A DNA stretch of 64,000 nucleotides from positions 930,001 through 994,000 of the forward strand of contig NZ_PTJC01000006.1 in NCBI RefSeq assembly GCF_002934605.1. The letters are read 5' to 3'. The notes under the pieces are model-generated. The model searched no databases and was not told the DNA's origin. It worked only from the letters and a program-made list of their open reading frames with translations. The stretch comes from Neolewinella xylanilytica. Its GTDB lineage: Bacteria; Bacteroidota; Bacteroidia; Chitinophagales; Saprospiraceae. Made by a program: the position numbers and the translations under genes. Shown here piece by piece: positions 37,759 to 49,208 of the stretch (its first letter is position 1; each line of letters opens with the position of its first letter).

Positions 37759-38682
37759 ATGAAAAGGCAGGGACCGGGTGGACTACTCCTCACCCCACCA
37801 CCTGGTTCCGGGCAATACAAAGCAAGCTACGCCATGCACCTTAACTTCAGTAACCCCGGCGGGGAAGACTCGAATCGTGATCCTTACGGCGGCGACCAAA
37901 GTCGGAGCGTGCGGGACGGAGACCCGGGTGGGCTATTGGATCGATCCGCCGCCTTCGTGTATTCGATTGACTACCGAACCCGCCGCTTTAAGTACTTAAG
38001 TCACGGAATTCAACGCATGCTCGGGTTTGGCCACGATTCCTGGAAGCGGCGGGGAGCGGAGGCCATCGCGGCGGCGATACACCCCGAGGACCAGGCCCTG
38101 TATCGAGCGATTTGGCAGCACATCGGCGACGTATTGCGTGAATCTCCCGCGAAACAGCGCACCAACGTTCATTTCACCTATTGCCTTCGACTACTCACGG
38201 CGGACGGCGTACCCGTTCACCTCGGTTTCCAAAAAACGATCATTGCGGTCGACGCAGCGGGAAATCCGGTTGCCGACGTAGTGGTGGTCACGGACATAAC
38301 GCCATTTCTTCGACCGCAGTCGGGTTTCCTGCACATCGGGGCCGTGGGAATGGGGAGCCACCAATCCTACAACGTGGACTTACCAGCTACCGGGGAAACC
38401 ATCCCTTTTTCGGCCCGTGAACGGGAAGTCCTGCAACTCGTAGCTCAGGGGATGAGTAGCCGGGAGATTGCCGGGGCGCTGTTTATCAGCAGGGATACCG
38501 TGTCTACGCACCGAAAGAACATGATGAAAAAGGCGGGCGTCAATCGGGCGATCGAATTGATCCGCTACGCCCGCGCGCACGGTTTGTTGGAAGAGCGGGG
38601 CCTACCGTCGGCCGTTGTGGTAAAGAAACCGGAAAAGGAAATAGCAGATCGCGAGGAAGGTAGCGACGGGGATCAGGAATAG
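37759..38682 (+). CDS. PAS-LuxR transcriptional regulator
   Basis: The 307-residue protein has a PAS-like sensor region (about residues 60-185, YSIDYRTRRFKYLSHGIQRM and IHPEDQALYRAIW). A LuxR-type helix-turn-helix follows (about 215-280, FSAREREVLQLVAQGMSSR and RDTVSTHRKNMMKKAG). It lacks a receiver domain, so it probably senses a ligand directly. The acidic/lysine tail after residue 280 is encoded opposite a small hydrophobic frame. ATG at 37834 (MHLNFSN) is a possible alternative start. Confidence 0.85.
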   Translation: MKRQGPGGLLLTPPPGSGQYKASYAMHLNFSNPGGEDSNRDPYGGDQSRSVRDGDPGGLLDRSAAFVYSIDYRTRRFKYLSHGIQRMLGFGHDSWKRRGAEAIAAAIHPEDQALYRAIWQHIGDVLRESPAKQRTNVHFTYCLRLLTADGVPVHLGFQKTIIAVDAAGNPVADVVVVTDITPFLRPQSGFLHIGAVGMGSHQSYNVDLPATGETIPFSAREREVLQLVAQGMSSREIAGALFISRDTVSTHRKNMMKKAGVNRAIELIRYARAHGLLEERGLPSAVVVKKPEKEIADREEGSDGDQE

Positions 38683-38929: not shown

Positions 38930-39724
38930 ATGTTGCGAGCCTTCGTAATTATTTGGTTGGCGTGGCTGCTTGGCGGGGCGCTGCCCGGTCAGTCGGCGGG
39001 TAGTGAGCCGTTACCGATCGAAGTGATTCAACAACTGCCGGACACCACCTTGCGGCTGGCCTTCCACTTCGAGGCCCTGCCCGACGGTCGGAACTTCGTC
39101 ACCGACCCCAACGATAGTCTGCTAATCGCCCACGGCAACAACGAGAAATTACGGGCCGACATCCTTATCTATTACGTACTGCAGGAACTGAACCACCGCT
39201 TCCGCACCGGCATGGTGGACTACGCGCCGAGCCGGGATACGAAGATTCGGTTCGCTTTGGTCGAAACCCTGGATTCCGGGATCCGGGGGGCGTCCTTTTA
39301 CGCTCACGGCGAGCGACCGGTGCACGTTCCCGGGGCATTTAACGTGATATTCCGGTACCACCCCGGCCCCCGGGCACCGAACGGTTCGACGGGTGGGGTA
39401 GGGAGCACCACGATTTACATCTACAACGCTCTACAAACTTACCTGGCGGGGAGCCAGGACACCTGGTCGCTGGCCCGCAACATCGGCCACGAGATCGGGC
39501 ACGCCCTGTCCCTCGATCACACCTTTAAATGCGACAACCCCTGCGCCGGGCAGGGCTTCGACCCGTTGGAAGAATGCTACGGCGACTGCGTACCCCACAA
39601 CCACGGCAGCGACAAGATCAATTGCTTTGGGGGTAGTTCGCGGGAGCTGATGATGGGCTACGGGTCGCAGGTGTACTTGACGGTTTGTGAGGTGGAGCGG
39701 ATGTGGGGGTGGTTGTTGCGGTAG
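38930..39724 (+). CDS. Secreted M43-like zinc metalloprotease
   Basis: The 264-residue protein has a signal peptide (1-20) and the metzincin zinc motif HEIGHALSLDH (HExxHxxxxxH), followed by a Met-turn region in RELMMGYGSQ. Six cysteines in the C-terminal third (for example CDNPCAG and CYGDC) probably form disulfides. The layout resembles pappalysin-like M43 proteases, but the protein is short and lacks a type IX sorting domain. Function is probably digestion of extracellular protein. Confidence 0.82.
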   Translation: MLRAFVIIWLAWLLGGALPGQSAGSEPLPIEVIQQLPDTTLRLAFHFEALPDGRNFVTDPNDSLLIAHGNNEKLRADILIYYVLQELNHRFRTGMVDYAPSRDTKIRFALVETLDSGIRGASFYAHGERPVHVPGAFNVIFRYHPGPRAPNGSTGGVGSTTIYIYNALQTYLAGSQDTWSLARNIGHEIGHALSLDHTFKCDNPCAGQGFDPLEECYGDCVPHNHGSDKINCFGGSSRELMMGYGSQVYLTVCEVERMWGWLLR

Positions 39725-39779: not shown

Positions 39780-39902
39780 GATGGGGGCGGTAGGCAAGTT
39801 TTTTAAGGTTGGTTACATTAAACTGCTGGGAAACAACTTGGGTAGTATTCTCCAAAAATTTAGACTAGCGAATGAGACACTATTGAAATTATCGTACGAA
39901 AA

Positions 39903-40060
39903 ATGAAGGATCGTAAATTCAGTTTGGAGTTCAGATTTAAGGTTGCCGCGGAGGCCATTTAGGAACAATACTATTTAGCGGAGCTGACTGATCAACCCCA
40001 GTTGGCTCCGCACCAGATCAATAGCTGGAATCTGATCCTCGCTTAGCTAGCTATTCTTTA
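39903..40060 (+). pseudogene. Remnant of an IS3-type transposase orfA
   Basis: Translation from the ATG gives MKDRKFSLEFRFKVAAEAI, a stop, EQYYLAELTDQPQLAPHQIN, then SWNLILA and another stop. This follows the start of IS3-family OrfA (K-x-R-K-F-S-x-E-F-x-x-K-V-A-x-E-A, then Y-x-L-A-E-L and H-x-Q-I-x-x-W). Two internal stops and loss of similarity afterwards show it is dead. No orfB or terminal repeats were found. Confidence 0.75.
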
Positions 40061-40269
40061 CGACGACCAATTGCGTCTGGACCTGTGAGCGCGGCTGTCA
40101 ACGTATTTTCTGCCCAACTCCCCTTGGTGTTCTGCGGGGGCTTGACCGAAAAATTCTTCCGCTAGAAAATGCCGTGACACACTTTATGTAATACTCTCTC
40201 GCCGAGGTAGCGGGATGGTTGTTAAACTTTAGCTCCAACCTCAAAATAAAAACTACCGTAACAGCTGTC
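40061..40269. other. AT-rich gene-free stretch
   Basis: Together with the preceding REP hairpins and IS remnant this makes the 545-bp gap between the metzincin gene and the small-peptide operon. I see no ORF, tRNA or clear terminator. Base composition is visibly more AT-rich than the surrounding chromosome. Confidence 0.5.
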
Positions 40270-40437
40270 TCAATCTAATTTGTAGAATCGGATAACTGCT
40301 ATTGACAGTATGGTTAAAATAATAAAGAAACCAATATTGTCAAAATTATGGGTGCCCTTATAGATTTCAACACTGTTGAGTAGGAGATAAAGTACAACAA
40401 AGAAGACTACAGTCGCGAAATACTTATTCAAATACAT
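40270..40437 (-). CDS. Two-helix small membrane protein, candidate immunity protein
   Basis: The 55-residue protein has two membrane helices (about 7-20, TVVFFVVLYLLL, and 36-50, IGFFIILTILSIAVI). A short polar loop (NSVEIYKGTHNFDN) separates them, and the tail RFYKLD is basic. There is no Gly-Gly leader. As last gene of the small-peptide operon it is placed where bacteriocin immunity proteins usually are, so immunity is a reasonable inference but unproven. Codons are AT-rich. A 12-bp-stem hairpin lies between it and the preceding peptide gene. Confidence 0.65.
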   Translation of the reverse strand: MYLNKYFATVVFFVVLYLLLNSVEIYKGTHNFDNIGFFIILTILSIAVIRFYKLD

Positions 40438-40456
40438 GGCTCAACAATTATTTGTT

Positions 40457-40484
40457 GCTCCGAAGATACTTCTATCTTCGGAGC
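40457..40484 (-). terminator. 12-bp-stem hairpin inside the small-peptide operon
   Basis: GCTCCGAAGATA (40457-40468) pairs perfectly with 40473-40484 around a CTTC loop. In the direction of the operon it is followed by an A/T-rich but not T-only run. It could partly stop transcription after the third peptide and so lower expression of the 55-residue membrane protein, or protect the upstream mRNA. Confidence 0.6.
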
Positions 40485-40491
40485 ATACAAA

Positions 40492-40671
40492 CTACCGTGC
40501 CTGATGACGTGGTGAGGCACCATTGTATCCGTCGTAAAATCCTTCTCGGATATCCGGTAAATTGTCTAGTGCATCATAAAGGACACCAAGTAAGCCTGCT
40601 CGCTTGAGGAAGGACGATATGCCCCAGCCTCCTCGAATACAGGAAATTTGAGAATGATTGATGGGTTTCAT
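40492..40671 (-). CDS. Double-glycine leader peptide, bacteriocin-like (peptide C)
   Basis: The 59-residue precursor starts with MKPINHSQISCIRGG, a 15-residue leader with GG at the cleavage position. The 44-residue mature part starts WGISSFLKRAGLLGV, with an amphipathic helix and a glycine/tyrosine-rich DGYNGAS end. C39-type transporters cut after Gly-Gly during export. The gene is third in the peptide series, 36 bp after peptide B. Mature size and helix fit class II bacteriocins; a signalling role is also possible. Confidence 0.75.
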   Translation of the reverse strand: MKPINHSQISCIRGGWGISSFLKRAGLLGVLYDALDNLPDIREGFYDGYNGASPRHQAR

Positions 40672-40707
40672 AAAATTGCTATTTTGAAGTTGTAATTATT
40701 TGAGTTG

Positions 40708-40890
40708 TCAATATGGACGGGCAGGACTCCATTCGTATCTGCCAGGCTGAGACATTCGATCGATATCGCTTTGAATTCCTCTTGCTGTCCAACCTGCAGC
40801 ATATGCAATCCAATACCAAATACTCTCCCCTCCATTTAATACGGCCAATTCCTCGTGGGGAATGATTTCAACATTTTTTAAATTTTTCAT
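40708..40890 (-). CDS. Double-glycine leader peptide, bacteriocin-like (peptide B)
   Basis: The 60-residue precursor has a 21-residue leader ending EELAVLNGG, a very good double-glycine leader with the usual Glu/Leu pattern. The 39-residue mature part (ESIWYWIAYAAGWTARGIQS...) contains a hydrophobic aromatic helix like those of lactobin A/cerein 7B-type peptides and an Arg/Pro/Tyr-rich end. It is the strongest bacteriocin-like member of the set. A perfect -7 element lies 23 bp before its ATG. Confidence 0.82.
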   Translation of the reverse strand: MKNLKNVEIIPHEELAVLNGGESIWYWIAYAAGWTARGIQSDIDRMSQPGRYEWSPARPY

Positions 40891-40912
40891 AACTATAGAT
40901 TTATTGTGTGAA

Positions 40913-40920
40913 CAAAATTA
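40913..40920 (-). promoter_or_regulatory. -7 promoter element TAATTTTG between peptides A and B
   Basis: On the minus strand TAATTTTG matches TAnnTTTG exactly and ends 22 bp before the peptide B start. It could give peptides B and C extra transcription independent of the upstream genes. AT-rich sequence raises the chance of a random match. Confidence 0.4.
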
Positions 40921-40926
40921 TTGAGG

Positions 40927-41082
40927 TTAATTGATGAATCTATTGATTGAAAATCTCTCTATTGTTGGTATGATAATTTCACCAACCGGTCTTTTACATT
41001 GAATATCGTATGGTGTAGGAAACACACAACCAAGCTCAAAGCCAAACCCGCCGCTAACGGATCGAAGTTCTTGAATAGACAT
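40927..41082 (-). CDS. Double-glycine leader peptide with two cysteines (peptide A)
   Basis: The 51-residue precursor starts MSIQELRSVSGG, a short 12-residue leader with GG. The 39-residue mature part has two cysteines (C19 and C29, LGCVFPTPYDIQCKRP) that could form a disulfide loop, then an Ile-rich end. It follows the acidic gene by 22 bp and precedes peptide B by 36 bp. It shares no obvious mature sequence with B or C, so the three may be distinct products instead of copies. Confidence 0.72.
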   Translation of the reverse strand: MSIQELRSVSGGFGFELGCVFPTPYDIQCKRPVGEIIIPTIERFSINRFIN

Positions 41083-41104
41083 ACTATATAAATTGGTGAT
41101 TAAA

Positions 41105-41254
41105 TTAAGTGGCAGTATTGTTATTCTCGCTCTGCCCCTGCATGCGCTCGAGGTATTCCTCCAGGGAAAGGTCCTCGTTCCAGTCGAGGGGCAGGTGGGG
41201 GATGGAGAATTCATCGGTTTCGTAATCCTCCGGGAAAAAGTCGTAGTCGTTCAT
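41105..41254 (-). CDS. Acidic 49-residue protein, first gene of the peptide operon
   Basis: The protein starts MNDYDFFPEDYETDEFSI and contains DWNEDLSLEEYLERMQGQ; about a third of residues are Asp or Glu. There is no leader, membrane helix or Cys. Position suggests a regulatory, chaperone or anti-toxin-like role for the following peptides, but this is inference. A longer frame that begins in the 140-bp repeat (41464) reads through to the same end, with a start MTKAPERR copied in the next repeat. Confidence 0.6.
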   Translation of the reverse strand: MNDYDFFPEDYETDEFSIPHLPLDWNEDLSLEEYLERMQGQSENNNTAT

Positions 41255-41309: not shown

Positions 41310-41960
41310 GGGCGCTGTGATAGGTAGGTAGTACAAGTAGTAGGGTGATTCCGCGCACCGGATGACCGAAAGGGTGAATCTTCGGTGCGACAGTAAATTC
41401 TGGCGTAGTGGATTATTAGTGGGAATGCTCCGGAAGCCATCCGGCGTTCCGGCGCTTTCGTCATTCAATAATGCAAGTATCGGGCGGGTCACTCTCACTG
41501 GGTGATAGTGGGGTTAAATCTTCCACTGCGGTAAATTATTTCCCGTTCTGCATTTTCAAGGGTAGTCATTGATCGCGATGCCGGCGTTCCGGCTCCGTCG
41601 TCGTTTCATAGTACAAGTATCGGGTCGGCCACTCTCAACGGGTGATAGTGGCGTTAAATCTTCGGCGGGCCGGTGATTTTTTTGTCGCTCCGATTTTCAG
41701 GGGCAGTCGACTTTTAGGGATACCGGCGTTCCGGCTCTTCTGTCATTCGATAGTACAAGTATCGGGTCAGCCACTCTCAGGGGGTGATAGTGGCGTTAAT
41801 TCTTCGGTGGGTCAGTGAATTTTTCCGTTGCGGGTTCCCGAGGACGACGGCTCGTAAGGAACCCGGCATTCCGGTTCTTTCGTCGTTCGATCAGGCAAGT
41901 TTTAGGTTGGTCAGGCGCAGCGGGTAAGCCGGGTGTGGGATCCTGGACACACTTTTACTT
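41310..41960. repeat. Five degenerate ~140-bp tandem repeats
   Basis: The word CAAGTA/CAAGTT recurs at 41334, 41474, 41614, 41756 and 41896, spaced 140, 140, 142 and 140 bp. The middle three units share long stretches, including GGCGTTCCGG, CAAGTATCGGG and an imperfect palindrome CACTCTCA-5 bp-TGATAGTG; the outer two are decayed. On the minus strand each of two units encodes a start like MTKAPERR or MTEEPERR. The array lies upstream of the small-peptide operon. The rest of 41255-42257 holds no gene. Confidence 0.88.
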
Positions 41961-45284: not shown

Positions 45285-45324
45285 ACCGGGACGTGTGCTG
45301 CACAGGCGCACGTCCCGGTTTTTT
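45285..45324. terminator. Intrinsic terminator between the SGNH gene and the export operon
   Basis: ACCGGGACGTG (45285-45295) pairs perfectly with CACGTCCCGGT (45309-45319), followed by TTTTTT on the plus strand. It stops transcription of the SGNH gene just at the 3' end of the convergent small membrane-protein gene. Confidence 0.9.
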
Positions 45325-45502
45325 ACTGACGGATCCAGGTGTACAGCGATGCAAGCAGCCAGTACAGCAGGCGGTATATTCCATAGAGGATGGCGATCCC
45401 GGAGAGGTAAACCAGCCAGAAAGCGATATCGCCTACGTAAGGGAGCCACCAGAGTTCACCGCACTGGTTGGCCTGCAGCAGGGGTAGGGTAGGGAAGTAC
45501 AT
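45323..45502 (-). CDS. Small membrane protein, 59 residues
   Basis: The protein starts MYFPTLPLLQANQCGELWW and contains a long hydrophobic stretch (about residues 26-55, IAFWLVYLSGIAILYGIYRLL then YWLLASLY), enough for one long or two short helices, with TWIRQ at the end. There is no Gly-Gly leader. It starts 1 bp from the stop of the HTH gene, as the last gene of the export operon. A role in immunity or transporter function is possible. Confidence 0.65.
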   Translation of the reverse strand: MYFPTLPLLQANQCGELWWLPYVGDIAFWLVYLSGIAILYGIYRLLYWLLASLYTWIRQ

Positions 45503-45503
45503 A

Positions 45504-45833
45504 TCAGGAAACGGCTGCGGTGGAGGAAACGGCGGGTGGGACGAGTTTACGCACCTTGGCCGGTCCGTCGAAGGAGGTTGCTTCGCCAGGTTGCTCCGAC
45601 TGAACGCGTACGAAATCGATGCGCAATTCCACGCTCTCGTAGTACGCATAGCTCTGGCGCTGCTGGCAGAAGTGGATCGGCGCGCCCAACGCTTTCATCT
45701 GCGATAGCAGTCGGTACAGGCCGGGTTGGGATATACCGAGCCGCCCCGCGAATTCTTCCGGGGTGCCGGTGCGGTGGAACTTGATGAAGGTATGCATGCG
45801 CCGGAGGCGCTCTACTTGTTTTAGTACGGACAT
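45504..45833 (-). CDS. Helix-turn-helix regulator of the export operon
   Basis: The 109-residue protein has an N-terminal winged helix-turn-helix of the HTH_11/DeoR type (about residues 5-65), with LRRMHTFIKFHRTGTPEEFA and LGISQPGLYRLLSQMKALGA. A short beta wing follows (HFCQQRQSYAYYESVELRIDF). The C-terminal 35 residues are polar and proline-rich. It sits between the ABC transporter and the small membrane protein, so it probably controls this locus or the peptide operon. Confidence 0.8.
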   Translation of the reverse strand: MSVLKQVERLRRMHTFIKFHRTGTPEEFAGRLGISQPGLYRLLSQMKALGAPIHFCQQRQSYAYYESVELRIDFVRVQSEQPGEATSFDGPAKVRKLVPPAVSSTAAVS

Positions 45834-45869: not shown

Positions 45870-48047
45870 TTAAGCCGCCAATCGCCGGACGACCCGGCTG
45901 GGAAACTGCTTGTTCCAGAGCTCGCGGTACGCACCGGCCCCCGCCAACAGTTCATCGTGGGTACCTTCCTGGATAAGCTTACCTTCCTCCAGTACGGCGA
46001 TCTTGTCGGCGTCCATGATGGTGCTCAGCCGGTGGGCGATGATAATGATGGTTTTACCGGCGGCGCGTAAGCGGTGGATGGTGCGCTGCACGAATTCCTC
46101 GCTGGCGCTGTCCAGCGCCGAGGTAGCCTCGTCCAGGATAAGGATGTCGGGGTCCCGGTAAAGCGCCCGGGCAATCGCCAGTCGCTGGCGCTGACCGCCG
46201 CTCAGGGTAGCGCCGTGCTCGCCGACGTAGGTCGCGAATCCTTCCGGCAGGGTTTCGATGAAGGGAAGGAGACCGAGTTCCTTGCAAATGGACAGGATGC
46301 GCTGCATATCCGGCGCGTAGTCTCCGACGGCGATGTTCTCGATCAGGTTGCCGGCGAAGAGGCTCAGTTCCTGGGGGACTACCCCGATGCGGGCCCGCAG
46401 GCTCTGATTGGTGACGTAGGCCAGGTCGGCGTCGCCGATCACGACCTTTCCGGCGGTGGGCGGGTAGAGCTTCTGCAGCAGGGCGGCGAGGGTAGATTTT
46501 CCCGAGCCGCTTCCCCCTACCAGCCCGGTTATCTGGCCGGCAGGGATGGTCAGGTCAAACCCTTCGAATACGTTCTTTCGGGAACCGTAGCTGAATGCCA
46601 GCCCACGGAAGCGTATATCTCCGATCATTTCTCGCTTGAGCTCCATCCCTTGGATGGCCTCTTCCTCGCTTTCCAGGTCGATGATTTCGAAAAGTCTATC
46701 CGCCGCGATGAGGGCGTTCTGTATGGTCTTGTTCATGCCGATCAGCCCCCTGGCCGGCCCGGTGAAGTAGCCGATCAGGGCGTAAAAGCCCAGCAGCTCC
46801 CCGGGGGAGATGGCGCCTTCGATCACGTAGTAGCTGCCCACCCACAGCAGGATGATCGTGAAGAGCCGGCTTACCAGTTCCGAGGCATTGCCACTGAAGA
46901 TGCCCGTCATGCCGGAACGGTAGGTGGTCTGCAGTAACTTCACGAAGCGGGTTTCGGTCTTCCGGTTGGCGTGGTCCTCCAGGCCTAGTTGCTTGATCGT
47001 CCGCACGGCGTTGACGCTCTCTACCAGCTGGCTCTCCAGGTCGGCCGCCCGTTCCATGAGCTCCCGTTCCCGACTGCGATTCATGCGGTTGGTGACCCAG
47101 TAGATCGCCACGTAACAGGGGATGACGATCAGCAACACCAGCGCCAGTTTCCAGTAGTAGGTGAACATCAGTCCGAAGCTGAACACCACGATGAAGACAT
47201 TGACCAGCAGGTTGATCGCCACGTCGTTGATGAAGGCGCGGATCTTGACGGCATCCCCGATGCGGCTGATGATCTCCCCCGTCCGCATGGTGTCGAAGAA
47301 GCGCTGCGGCAAGCGAAGCAGGTGTTTGTAGTAGCCCAGGATCAGCCGGGCGTCGATGAGTTGACCGGACTTCATGACCATCACCGATTTCGCCGTGCCG
47401 ATGAAGATGCTCATGCCCAGCAGCGCCACCATCGCTATGCTCAACAGATTGAGTAAGCGGGTATTCTGGTTGATCAATACGAAGTCGGTGATCTTCTGCA
47501 GGTAGATCGAGGTGCTGAGTCCGAGTACGGTATAGACCACCGCCCCCACCAGCGCCTGCAGTAAGGTAGACCGGTGCGGCTGCAGTAGCGCCCGGAAGCG
47601 CGCGAAGGTCGATACCCGCCGGTCACCGGCCTTGAAGTCATCGCCCGGGGCAATCAGCAGCAGCACCCCCGTCCACTCCTCCCGCCACGTTTTCCAGCTT
47701 TTCTTCTGCATGCGCCCGTTGGCCGGGTCCATGACCTGGACGTACTTGTCCGTCACCCGGTACACGACCACGAAGTGGTGCAGCCGCTTATTGACGATGA
47801 CGTGAGCGACGGCGGGAAAGGGTGCCTCGTTTTTAAAGGCATCTTCCTCCGCCCGCACCCCCTGGCAGGTAAATCCGAGTTTCTCGGCCGCCTGGATCAT
47901 CCCCAGCAGATTCGTACCCTTCTGGTCCGTGCTGGCCATTTGCCGGATGCGGGCGATCGGAAGCGCCAGCTGGTAATGCGCCGCGATGGAGGCCAGGCAG
48001 GCCGCGCCACAGTCCGTGATGTCGTGTTGCTTGATCGTCTTTTTCAT
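45870..48047 (-). CDS. C39-peptidase ABC exporter (PCAT) for double-glycine peptides
   Basis: The 725-residue protein has an N-terminal C39 cysteine peptidase (1-150), with Cys13 in TDCGAAC, His91 in LHHFVVV and Asp107 in VMDPANG. A six-helix membrane domain (160-450) and an ATPase domain follow: Walker A GGSGSGKST, signature LSGGQRQRLAIARAL, Walker B ILILDEATSAL and H-loop AHRLST. All catalytic residues are intact. Such transporters cut leaders after Gly-Gly and export the mature peptide. Likely substrates are the three GG peptides at 40.5-41.1 kb. It starts 3 bp after the HlyD gene ends. Confidence 0.95.
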   Translation of the reverse strand: MKKTIKQHDITDCGAACLASIAAHYQLALPIARIRQMASTDQKGTNLLGMIQAAEKLGFTCQGVRAEEDAFKNEAPFPAVAHVIVNKRLHHFVVVYRVTDKYVQVMDPANGRMQKKSWKTWREEWTGVLLLIAPGDDFKAGDRRVSTFARFRALLQPHRSTLLQALVGAVVYTVLGLSTSIYLQKITDFVLINQNTRLLNLLSIAMVALLGMSIFIGTAKSVMVMKSGQLIDARLILGYYKHLLRLPQRFFDTMRTGEIISRIGDAVKIRAFINDVAINLLVNVFIVVFSFGLMFTYYWKLALVLLIVIPCYVAIYWVTNRMNRSRERELMERAADLESQLVESVNAVRTIKQLGLEDHANRKTETRFVKLLQTTYRSGMTGIFSGNASELVSRLFTIILLWVGSYYVIEGAISPGELLGFYALIGYFTGPARGLIGMNKTIQNALIAADRLFEIIDLESEEEAIQGMELKREMIGDIRFRGLAFSYGSRKNVFEGFDLTIPAGQITGLVGGSGSGKSTLAALLQKLYPPTAGKVVIGDADLAYVTNQSLRARIGVVPQELSLFAGNLIENIAVGDYAPDMQRILSICKELGLLPFIETLPEGFATYVGEHGATLSGGQRQRLAIARALYRDPDILILDEATSALDSASEEFVQRTIHRLRAAGKTIIIIAHRLSTIMDADKIAVLEEGKLIQEGTHDELLAGAGAYRELWNKQFPSRVVRRLAA

Positions 48048-48050
48048 GGC

Positions 48051-49208
48051 TTAGTGGTATACGGGATTGAACCAGTCGTCGAGTTTGTCGTGGAGGAGTT
48101 GGAAGAGGCTGCGTCGGGTAAGGGTGAAGTGGGCGGTCAGCGTCATGCCCTTTCGCAAACCGCCAACGTAGCCATTCTGCAACCGCAGCTCGGTATCGTG
48201 CAGCGTGCACAGCACCCGGAAGGCGGCCTGGCCCTCCACCTCGGTGACGTCCCGGCTGATCTCCGTGAGGGTGGCGCGGGCCAGTCCCCACTGGTTGTAG
48301 TTAAAGGCGTCGAGCTGCAGGCGTACCGGCAGCCCTTCCCGGAGCAGCCCGATATCCGAGGGACTCACGAAGGCCTCCACCCGCAGGTCGCCGTCGGGGC
48401 TGATCTGCCCCAGGGACTGGCCGGCCGAGGTGTACGCTCCCGCCTGTAGTCCGTCCGTCTGCGTCAGGTGGCCGTCCACGGGGGCGGTTACGACGTGCTG
48501 TTTGGAGCGTTCGGCCGTCTGTCGGAGACTGCGGTCCAGCTCCGCGGTTTCCCGGCGAATACGTTGCAGATCCTGCGTCCACTGGTGCCGCTGCCGCTCG
48601 GTAAGTTGCCGCAGCTGCCCCTCCAGCAGCTCCACTTCGAAGGCGGCCTGCTCGTGGTCCATACGGGCTACGGAGCCGGTTTCCAACAGTTCCGTCTGCC
48701 GTCCGAGGTGGCGACGGGCGTGGTCGAGCTTGAGTTCGAGCTCGTCGCGGCGGCGCAGGTATTCGCGGTGATCGCGCTGGTAGACCGCCGTGCGCAGTTC
48801 GGCTAGGGCCGTACCGTTGCTGGCGGTTAGGGTACCCAGATCCGCCAGGGCCAGCCTGCGCTCCCGACGTTGGGCAACGAGGTGATCGGTTTCGCCGTCC
48901 AGCTCGGCGGTGGAGACGATCAGTAGCGTATCGCCGGCACAGACCGCCCGGTCATCCTGTAGCCGGGCCAGGGTTCCCCGGCCGCCCACCGGACTGGATA
49001 CCGGGATCAGTTTCATGGCCGGACGCAGGATACCCCGGCTCTGGCTGTTCACTTCCACCTCGACGAGCGGCAGTACGCATACCGCCAGCAGCAGGCCGGC
49101 AACGATGGTTAGGTAAATGGCCCGTCCCGTGCGGGAGTGGCGGGCGTAGAGGCCCTCGACCCCCTCCACGAGCGGAAAGGGGAAGAGCCGGGGCGCTTCG
49201 GTTGGCAT
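48051..49208 (-). CDS. HlyD-family membrane fusion adaptor for the PCAT exporter
   Basis: The 385-residue protein has one N-terminal membrane helix (about 30-48, AIYLTIVAGLLLAVCVLPLV), then a biotinyl-lipoyl-like domain (PVGGRGTLARLQDDRAVCAG), a long helical hairpin (about 110-230) and a barrel domain (APVDGHLTQTDGLQAGAYTS). It links the ABC transporter to an outer membrane channel (TolC-type, not in this window). It is co-transcribed with the transporter gene, 3 bp apart. Confidence 0.93.
   Translation of the reverse strand: MPTEAPRLFPFPLVEGVEGLYARHSRTGRAIYLTIVAGLLLAVCVLPLVEVEVNSQSRGILRPAMKLIPVSSPVGGRGTLARLQDDRAVCAGDTLLIVSTAELDGETDHLVAQRRERRLALADLGTLTASNGTALAELRTAVYQRDHREYLRRRDELELKLDHARRHLGRQTELLETGSVARMDHEQAAFEVELLEGQLRQLTERQRHQWTQDLQRIRRETAELDRSLRQTAERSKQHVVTAPVDGHLTQTDGLQAGAYTSAGQSLGQISPDGDLRVEAFVSPSDIGLLREGLPVRLQLDAFNYNQWGLARATLTEISRDVTEVEGQAAFRVLCTLHDTELRLQNGYVGGLRKGMTLTAHFTLTRRSLFQLLHDKLDDWFNPVYH

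Follow-up and report, generated by a model that had tools for sequence, protein, structure and literature searches.

The window analysed here, i.e., the whole stretch of 64,000 nucleotides from Neolewinella xylanilytica, carries on its minus strand an operon of five small genes, three of which encode peptide precursors with double-glycine leaders. This cassette is a real, selected and exporter-linked multi-peptide system whose members are new, though of a known kind, and whose arrangement is new as well. With a rough probability of 0.6, which includes the mechanism laid out below, we read it as a cargo cassette of variable content that belongs to a class II-type (double-glycine) system of unmodified peptides. 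The surprising part is a co-evolving promoter-like element that joins such peptide operons to Y1-like transposases, GxxExxY genes and a secreted lamin-tail protein.

The operon, its selection and its exporter

An earlier note on this DNA had described five minus-strand open reading frames (ORFs) with gaps of 22, 36, 36 and 54 bp, three of them with leaders ending in GG, all of which is borne out. The first gene (41105..41254) encodes an acidic 49-aa protein with the core HLPLDWNEDLSLEEYL and no leader. It is followed by the precursors of peptide 1 (40927..41082, 51 aa, leader MSIQELRSVSGG), peptide 2 (40708..40890, 60 aa, leader ending in LAVLNGG) and peptide 3 (40492..40671, 59 aa, leader MKPINHSQISCIRGG). 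The mature part of peptide 1 contains two Cys, those of peptides 2 and 3 none. The last gene (40270..40437) encodes a 55-aa membrane protein, which is a candidate immunity protein. Four of the five genes are indeed AT-rich, i.e., their G+C contents of 0.37, 0.43, 0.47 and 0.31 and the 0.53 of the acidic gene compare with 0.596 for the window.

Peptide 1 lies in a longer frame that is already open from an ATG at 41214, so its start (41082) is set by the leader and by its relatives. This longer frame is also the reason why a strict leader-pattern scan missed peptide 1; on both strands of the window, the scan returned three ORFs, two of them from the operon. Markov shuffles of the 985-bp segment yielded two leader-pattern ORFs in 0/3000 cases and one such ORF in 30/3000.

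For comparison we used a genus sample of 21 genomes, in which the named relatives are Neolewinella/Lewinella strains and one Saprospiraceae metagenome-assembled genome. The frames are conserved with a synonymous bias that shows purifying selection, a check on which the earlier note had let its proposal depend. That is, the proportion of synonymous differences (pS) exceeds that of nonsynonymous ones (pN) in all five genes with regard to the relatives compared. Against genome G001, pS/pN is 0.37/0.17 for the acidic gene and 0.54/0.38 for peptide 1. Against contig G012:C37, the values are 0.84/0.26 for peptide 2, 0.81/0.37 for peptide 3 and 0.91/0.43 for the membrane protein, for which only the direction pS>pN is safe because pS is near saturation.

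A C39 peptidase/ABC exporter (PCAT, 725 aa, 45870..48047) and a HlyD-family adaptor (385 aa, 48051..49208, PF13437) are encoded 4.6 kb upstream on the same strand, with an opposite-strand GDSL-lipase-type gene in between. The exporter matches PF03412, PF00664 and PF00005 as well as TIGR01193, the peptide cleavage/export ABC transporter family (527.7 bits, cut-off 523.85). Directly behind it, again on the minus strand, lies the gene of a 109-aa helix-turn-helix (HTH) protein (45504..45833), a candidate regulator with weak sub-threshold HTH matches. Exporter, HTH gene and a promoter-like array at 41464-41806 are additions to what the earlier note described.

Recurrence and cassette turnover

The acidic gene is present in 7/21 genomes of the genus sample (own included) and in 2 of 298 drawn family genomes, both from this genus. 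Its profile finds 52 proteins in a large protein set, own included, and the 17 of these that were inspected have the core HLPLDWNE-x-(LIM)-(ST)LE(ED)YL in common. All seven loci with the acidic gene show a same-strand exporter (80-100% identical) 1.0-4.6 kb upstream, preceded by HlyD, and the HTH gene stands directly behind the exporter in 8/8 genomes with a close exporter copy. Thus, of the recurrence next to C39 transporters considered in the earlier note, the exporter linkage holds (7/7 acidic-gene loci) while the exact five-gene order was not found elsewhere. Its reading as a multi-peptide double-glycine system is supported by the above-cut-off TIGR01193 exporter with HlyD nearby, the recurring arrangement and the conserved frames. 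In three further genomes with an orthologous exporter (65-73%), neither element nor peptide operon nor neighbouring HTH gene was seen in the fetched stretch, where the G006 contig among these comparisons ends 0.6 kb behind the exporter.

The other main loci share the acidic gene, and some also a diverged peptide 1. Behind the acidic gene, the sets of double-glycine precursors differ, with families shared by G001 and G016 and by G011 and G017. We counted 43 precursors in nine genomes, i.e., 3 in the own genome, 6 in G001, 8 in G004, 2 in G008, 6 in G011, 7 in G012, 4 in G016, 5 in G017 and 2 in G020, where one G011 leader ends in AG and one further G017 candidate was excluded.

Whole units also occur at separate places. 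A genome search found a relative of peptide 2 in G012 (57% identical), to which the large protein set adds two relatives besides the own one; on contig G012:C37, relatives of peptide 3 and the membrane protein adjoin it in matching order and without an acidic gene. G001 and G016 carry a homologous trio in their main loci, and G004 carries it elsewhere. Separate places in G004 and G012 hold a pair together with a 48-aa membrane protein (86-90% identical). This 48-aa protein (G004:C30, L086; G012:C12, L090) shares G-H-x-F-G-H-W-x-Y-G with the C-terminal half of the adjoining peptide; for one such protein, 15/24 aligned positions match. In G016:C11 (L118), it is found without a peptide, i.e., as an orphan immunity-like gene.

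Peptide 1 represents a diverged family seen in 7 genomes, whose 7 aligned members have invariant M, GG, C and P. It is present in G004, where the acidic gene is not recognisable, and in G012 and G016 it follows the HTH gene on its own; in G020, no peptide 1 was seen.

A promoter-like element shared by several gene classes

Upstream of the acidic gene, all seven loci carry 1-6 copies of a 61-bp element. In the window, three minus-strand copies (41464..41524, 41604..41664 and 41746..41806), each matched by both models described below, sit in a tandem array at 41441-41824 with units of ~140 bp; the A in column 56 of the nearest copy lies 215 bp before the acidic ATG. The element, AGATTTAAC, consists of a dyad with two 8-nt arms around 5 nt, followed by (A/T)nnTTTG and an A 5 nt later. 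At the expected site, this box resembles the Bacteroidota sigma-ABfr -7 box TAnnTTTG with the first T mostly replaced by G, and the dyad is centred ~31 nt ahead of the conserved A and covers the position of a -33 box. Promoter activity of the element is a prediction. Within each genome the dyad changes in concert, so that regulator and operator can be matched across species.

Model R1, built from 18 element copies, gave 61 matches in 9/21 genus genomes at expectation values (E) up to 0.1. Alignment A3 uses 52 of these; the others are G020:C54, G016:C11, two copies that precede truncated GxxExxY starts and five array copies that are near-duplicates. A second model, R2, was built from A3 and matched 71 sites across the nine element-bearing genomes at E up to 2. 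As the training set of R2 consists of R1 hits, its E-values lack independence, while the gene classes behind the matches are independent. A search of 199 family genomes with R2 and stricter filters found the element in 2, both of this genus.

We inspected the sequence downstream of all 71 R2 matches, where one representative per class was typed by profile and the others by eye. Main loci (arrays and the orphan peptide 1 of G012) account for 25 matches; six precede other double-glycine operons and one a 48-aa immunity-like gene. GxxExxY genes follow in 10 cases, a lamin-tail/type IX secretion system (T9SS) gene in 9 (broken in G011), RAYT-like genes in 7 (type 1, one frame broken) and 4 (type 2), and IS200-like genes in 2 (one degenerate). 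Seven matches lack an intact class gene, i.e., two precede truncated GxxExxY genes, one no intact gene and four short repeats or a repeat-rich frame. The occurrence of one element before peptide operons and also before transposase-like, nuclease-like and secreted-protein genes suggests a coordinated programme not described so far. An assignment to true REP-associated tyrosine transposases (RAYT; REP, repetitive extragenic palindrome) was rejected, and we use the label RAYT-like because the curated cut-off of NF047646 is not reached (34.9 and 56.2 bits, cut-off 80).

The GxxExxY representative, a PD-(D/E)XK protein, matches PF13366 and TIGR04256 (141.8 bits, cut-off 35). TIGR04256 has 37 matches in the genus, of which 29 loci were examined and 24 parsed. 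The element is found at 9/14 parsed loci in element-bearing genomes and at 0/10 in genomes without the element elsewhere; it is therefore not simply inherited with the GxxExxY family. Within element-bearing genomes, the GxxExxY genes without an element (L218, L219, L202, L210, L222) often show an alternative upstream sequence around AAAACAnTTTGT. On contig G012:C39 (L089:1626-2457), two of three tandem element copies stand before truncated GxxExxY start copies. At L137, L138, L139 and L107, element copies are followed by short tandem repeats with no clear gene, perhaps a small RNA; three of these four lie between trmD-like and metallo-beta-lactamase-like genes (names by eye).

With regard to the factor that might bind the dyad, the 8 genomes with the HTH gene at E below 1e-20 are also those with the element at E below 1e-7. 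Because R1 was trained on 7 of them, only G004 counts as an independent positive, and it is the negative genomes that are informative. The probable recognition helix was located by eye; its sequence is S(Q/P)(P/A)GLYR where TCA/TGA-type arms predominate (own genome and G001) and S-x-S-x-L-(F/Y)-(R/K) in the other six. Diverged HTH relatives are found near other C39 exporters in G002 and G011. Two points speak against this protein as the regulator. The eight genomes may form one clade, in which case the co-occurrence may go back to one event, and G008 carries the element with an HTH relative of only 33% identity and without a close exporter copy. On these sequence grounds we tentatively place the chance that the HTH protein regulates the element somewhat below even.

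Interpretation and known systems

According to the cargo-cassette reading, transcription would start at the tandem copies of the regulon promoter, and the acidic protein would be made first and remain in the cell. The three precursors would be cut behind GG and exported through the nearby C39 exporter and its HlyD adaptor. The mature peptides 2 and 3 together would form a bacteriocin against related bacteria, with immunity presumably conferred by the 55-aa membrane protein, while peptide 1, recurring near the exporter, would more likely serve as a signal or as a shared partner. The cassette and, at other places in the genome, transposase-like, GxxExxY and lamin-tail genes would be controlled jointly by a factor that binds the dyad, possibly the HTH protein.

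Several observations weigh against this reading. R1 was trained on 7/9 and R2 on all 9 element-bearing genomes, and 5/14 parsed GxxExxY genes in such genomes have other upstream sequence in place of the element. G008 is an element-bearing genome in which a close exporter copy is absent and the HTH relative is only 33% identical. The small proteins of the operon reach no curated Pfam or NCBIfam cut-off, and the 55-aa membrane protein of the window shows no resemblance to the peptides of its own operon.

A possible, if doubtful, alternative is that the dyad is a repressor operator which silences costly or selfish genes (peptides, Y1 transposases), such that the shared element reflects silencing and not joint induction. 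The position of the dyad over the -33 place fits this, and Y1-type genes are typical mobile or domesticated mobile genes. Yet the lamin-tail/T9SS gene behind 9 matches is by its domains not a mobile gene; moreover, a repressor and an inducible programme are mutually compatible.

An extension of the cargo-cassette reading would make the operon part of a programme of predation and DNA processing under peptide control. A single signal, perhaps peptide 1, and a single dyad-binding factor would co-induce changeable multi-peptide bacteriocins, Y1-type (single-strand DNA) enzymes, the PD-(D/E)XK protein and the secreted lamin-tail protein, as an independently evolved Bacteroidota counterpart of streptococcal bacteriocin-competence coupling. 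We consider this unlikely. None of the 71 element matches was seen to precede a core competence gene, which counts against it.

It is still less probable that every peptide is a signal or other extracellular factor and not a toxin, with the membrane protein having no immunity function. C39 exporters are also known to export pheromones, and peptide 1 is a recurring family that stands alone behind the HTH gene in two genomes. In contrast, the species-differing sets of 2-6 unrelated precursors, with small or ~250-aa membrane proteins behind them, look like toxin/immunity turnover, and one 48-aa membrane protein copies the C-terminal half of its neighbour peptide.

We give little credit to the element being a REP-like repeat, recognised or spread by the RAYT-like transposases, instead of a promoter. 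It is palindromic and precedes RAYT-like genes, and a link between RAYT and REP palindromes is known. However, a genome has just 5-11 matches, and wherever a gene follows, the match is oriented in its sense; the ATG falls on column 56 or 57 in 17/17 RAYT type 1 and GxxExxY cases (first ATG, in one case a later ATG), and the element contains the -7-like box. Least probable are modified peptides (RiPPs, ribosomally synthesized and post-translationally modified) with enzymes encoded elsewhere: lanthipeptides and other RiPPs are also known to be exported by C39 exporters, but no modifying enzyme was found among the ten larger neighbours scanned with Pfam, and none stood out in the seven compared loci, where the other genes were viewed by eye and not by profile.

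Among the closest known systems are the bacteroidetocins of Bacteroides/Prevotella, which likewise combine a small double-glycine precursor with a C39 exporter and are bacteriocin-like (PMC6671954). They comprise one Cys-bearing peptide, whose mature part has at least two Cys and is alike across members, a transmembrane (TM) protein and mostly a thiol oxidoreductase, with no immunity gene found. Compared by this description, the Neolewinella locus differs by several unrelated peptides, the acidic protein, the HlyD adaptor, the HTH gene and the shared promoter element, and neither the TM protein nor the thiol oxidoreductase gene is among the Pfam-scanned neighbours.

Streptococcal blp/com-type bacteriocin and pheromone loci resemble it in exporter and adaptor, interchangeable bacteriocin/immunity cassettes, a recurring small double-glycine peptide and a common promoter motif at scattered sites. 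At the Neolewinella locus, in contrast, a two-component regulator was not identified, a dyad takes the place of the direct repeats of the blp/com regulators, and the putatively co-regulated genes are Y1-like, GxxExxY and lamin-tail genes. Class IIb two-peptide bacteriocins such as lactococcin G share short amphipathic or hydrophobic mature parts, and peptide 2 matches the Lactococcin leader profile below threshold; unlike that type, the curated cut-off is not reached and operons hold up to six precursors.

In the SOS (LexA-like) regulons of Bacteroidetes, too, several promoters carry a dyad operator, and some of them carry more than one; the reported motifs are CTAA-N5-TTAG and GGA-N5-TCC before DNA-repair genes (PMC8565304). 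The element was rejected as such an operator, given its different dyad and no DNA-repair gene recognised behind the 71 matches.

Double-glycine peptides of Bacteroidota have so far been described mainly from gut bacteroidetocins. To these, the marine genus adds a cassette-swapping multi-peptide version with its own exporter, and the promoter-like signature links its peptide operons with Y1-like transposases as well as with the PD-(D/E)XK family GxxExxY, the function of which is unknown. Since regulator and operator can be matched, direct tests can ask what the regulator is and what the RAYT-like and GxxExxY genes are for.

Further features surround the locus. Behind the HTH gene, a 59-aa small membrane protein is encoded on the minus strand (45323..45502, from translation), with a similar ORF seen by eye in G001. 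On the plus strand, a broken frame starting MKDRKFSLEFRFKVAAEAI (39880-40260), which by eye resembles an IS3-type transposase remnant, lies at the downstream edge of the AT-rich region. Downstream of the cassette lies an M43 (pappalysin-like) metallopeptidase gene (38930-39724, plus strand), a relative of which is near 5/7 acidic-gene loci, own counted. A PAS-LuxR regulator gene (37759-38682, plus strand) has relatives near the G001 and G020 loci only.
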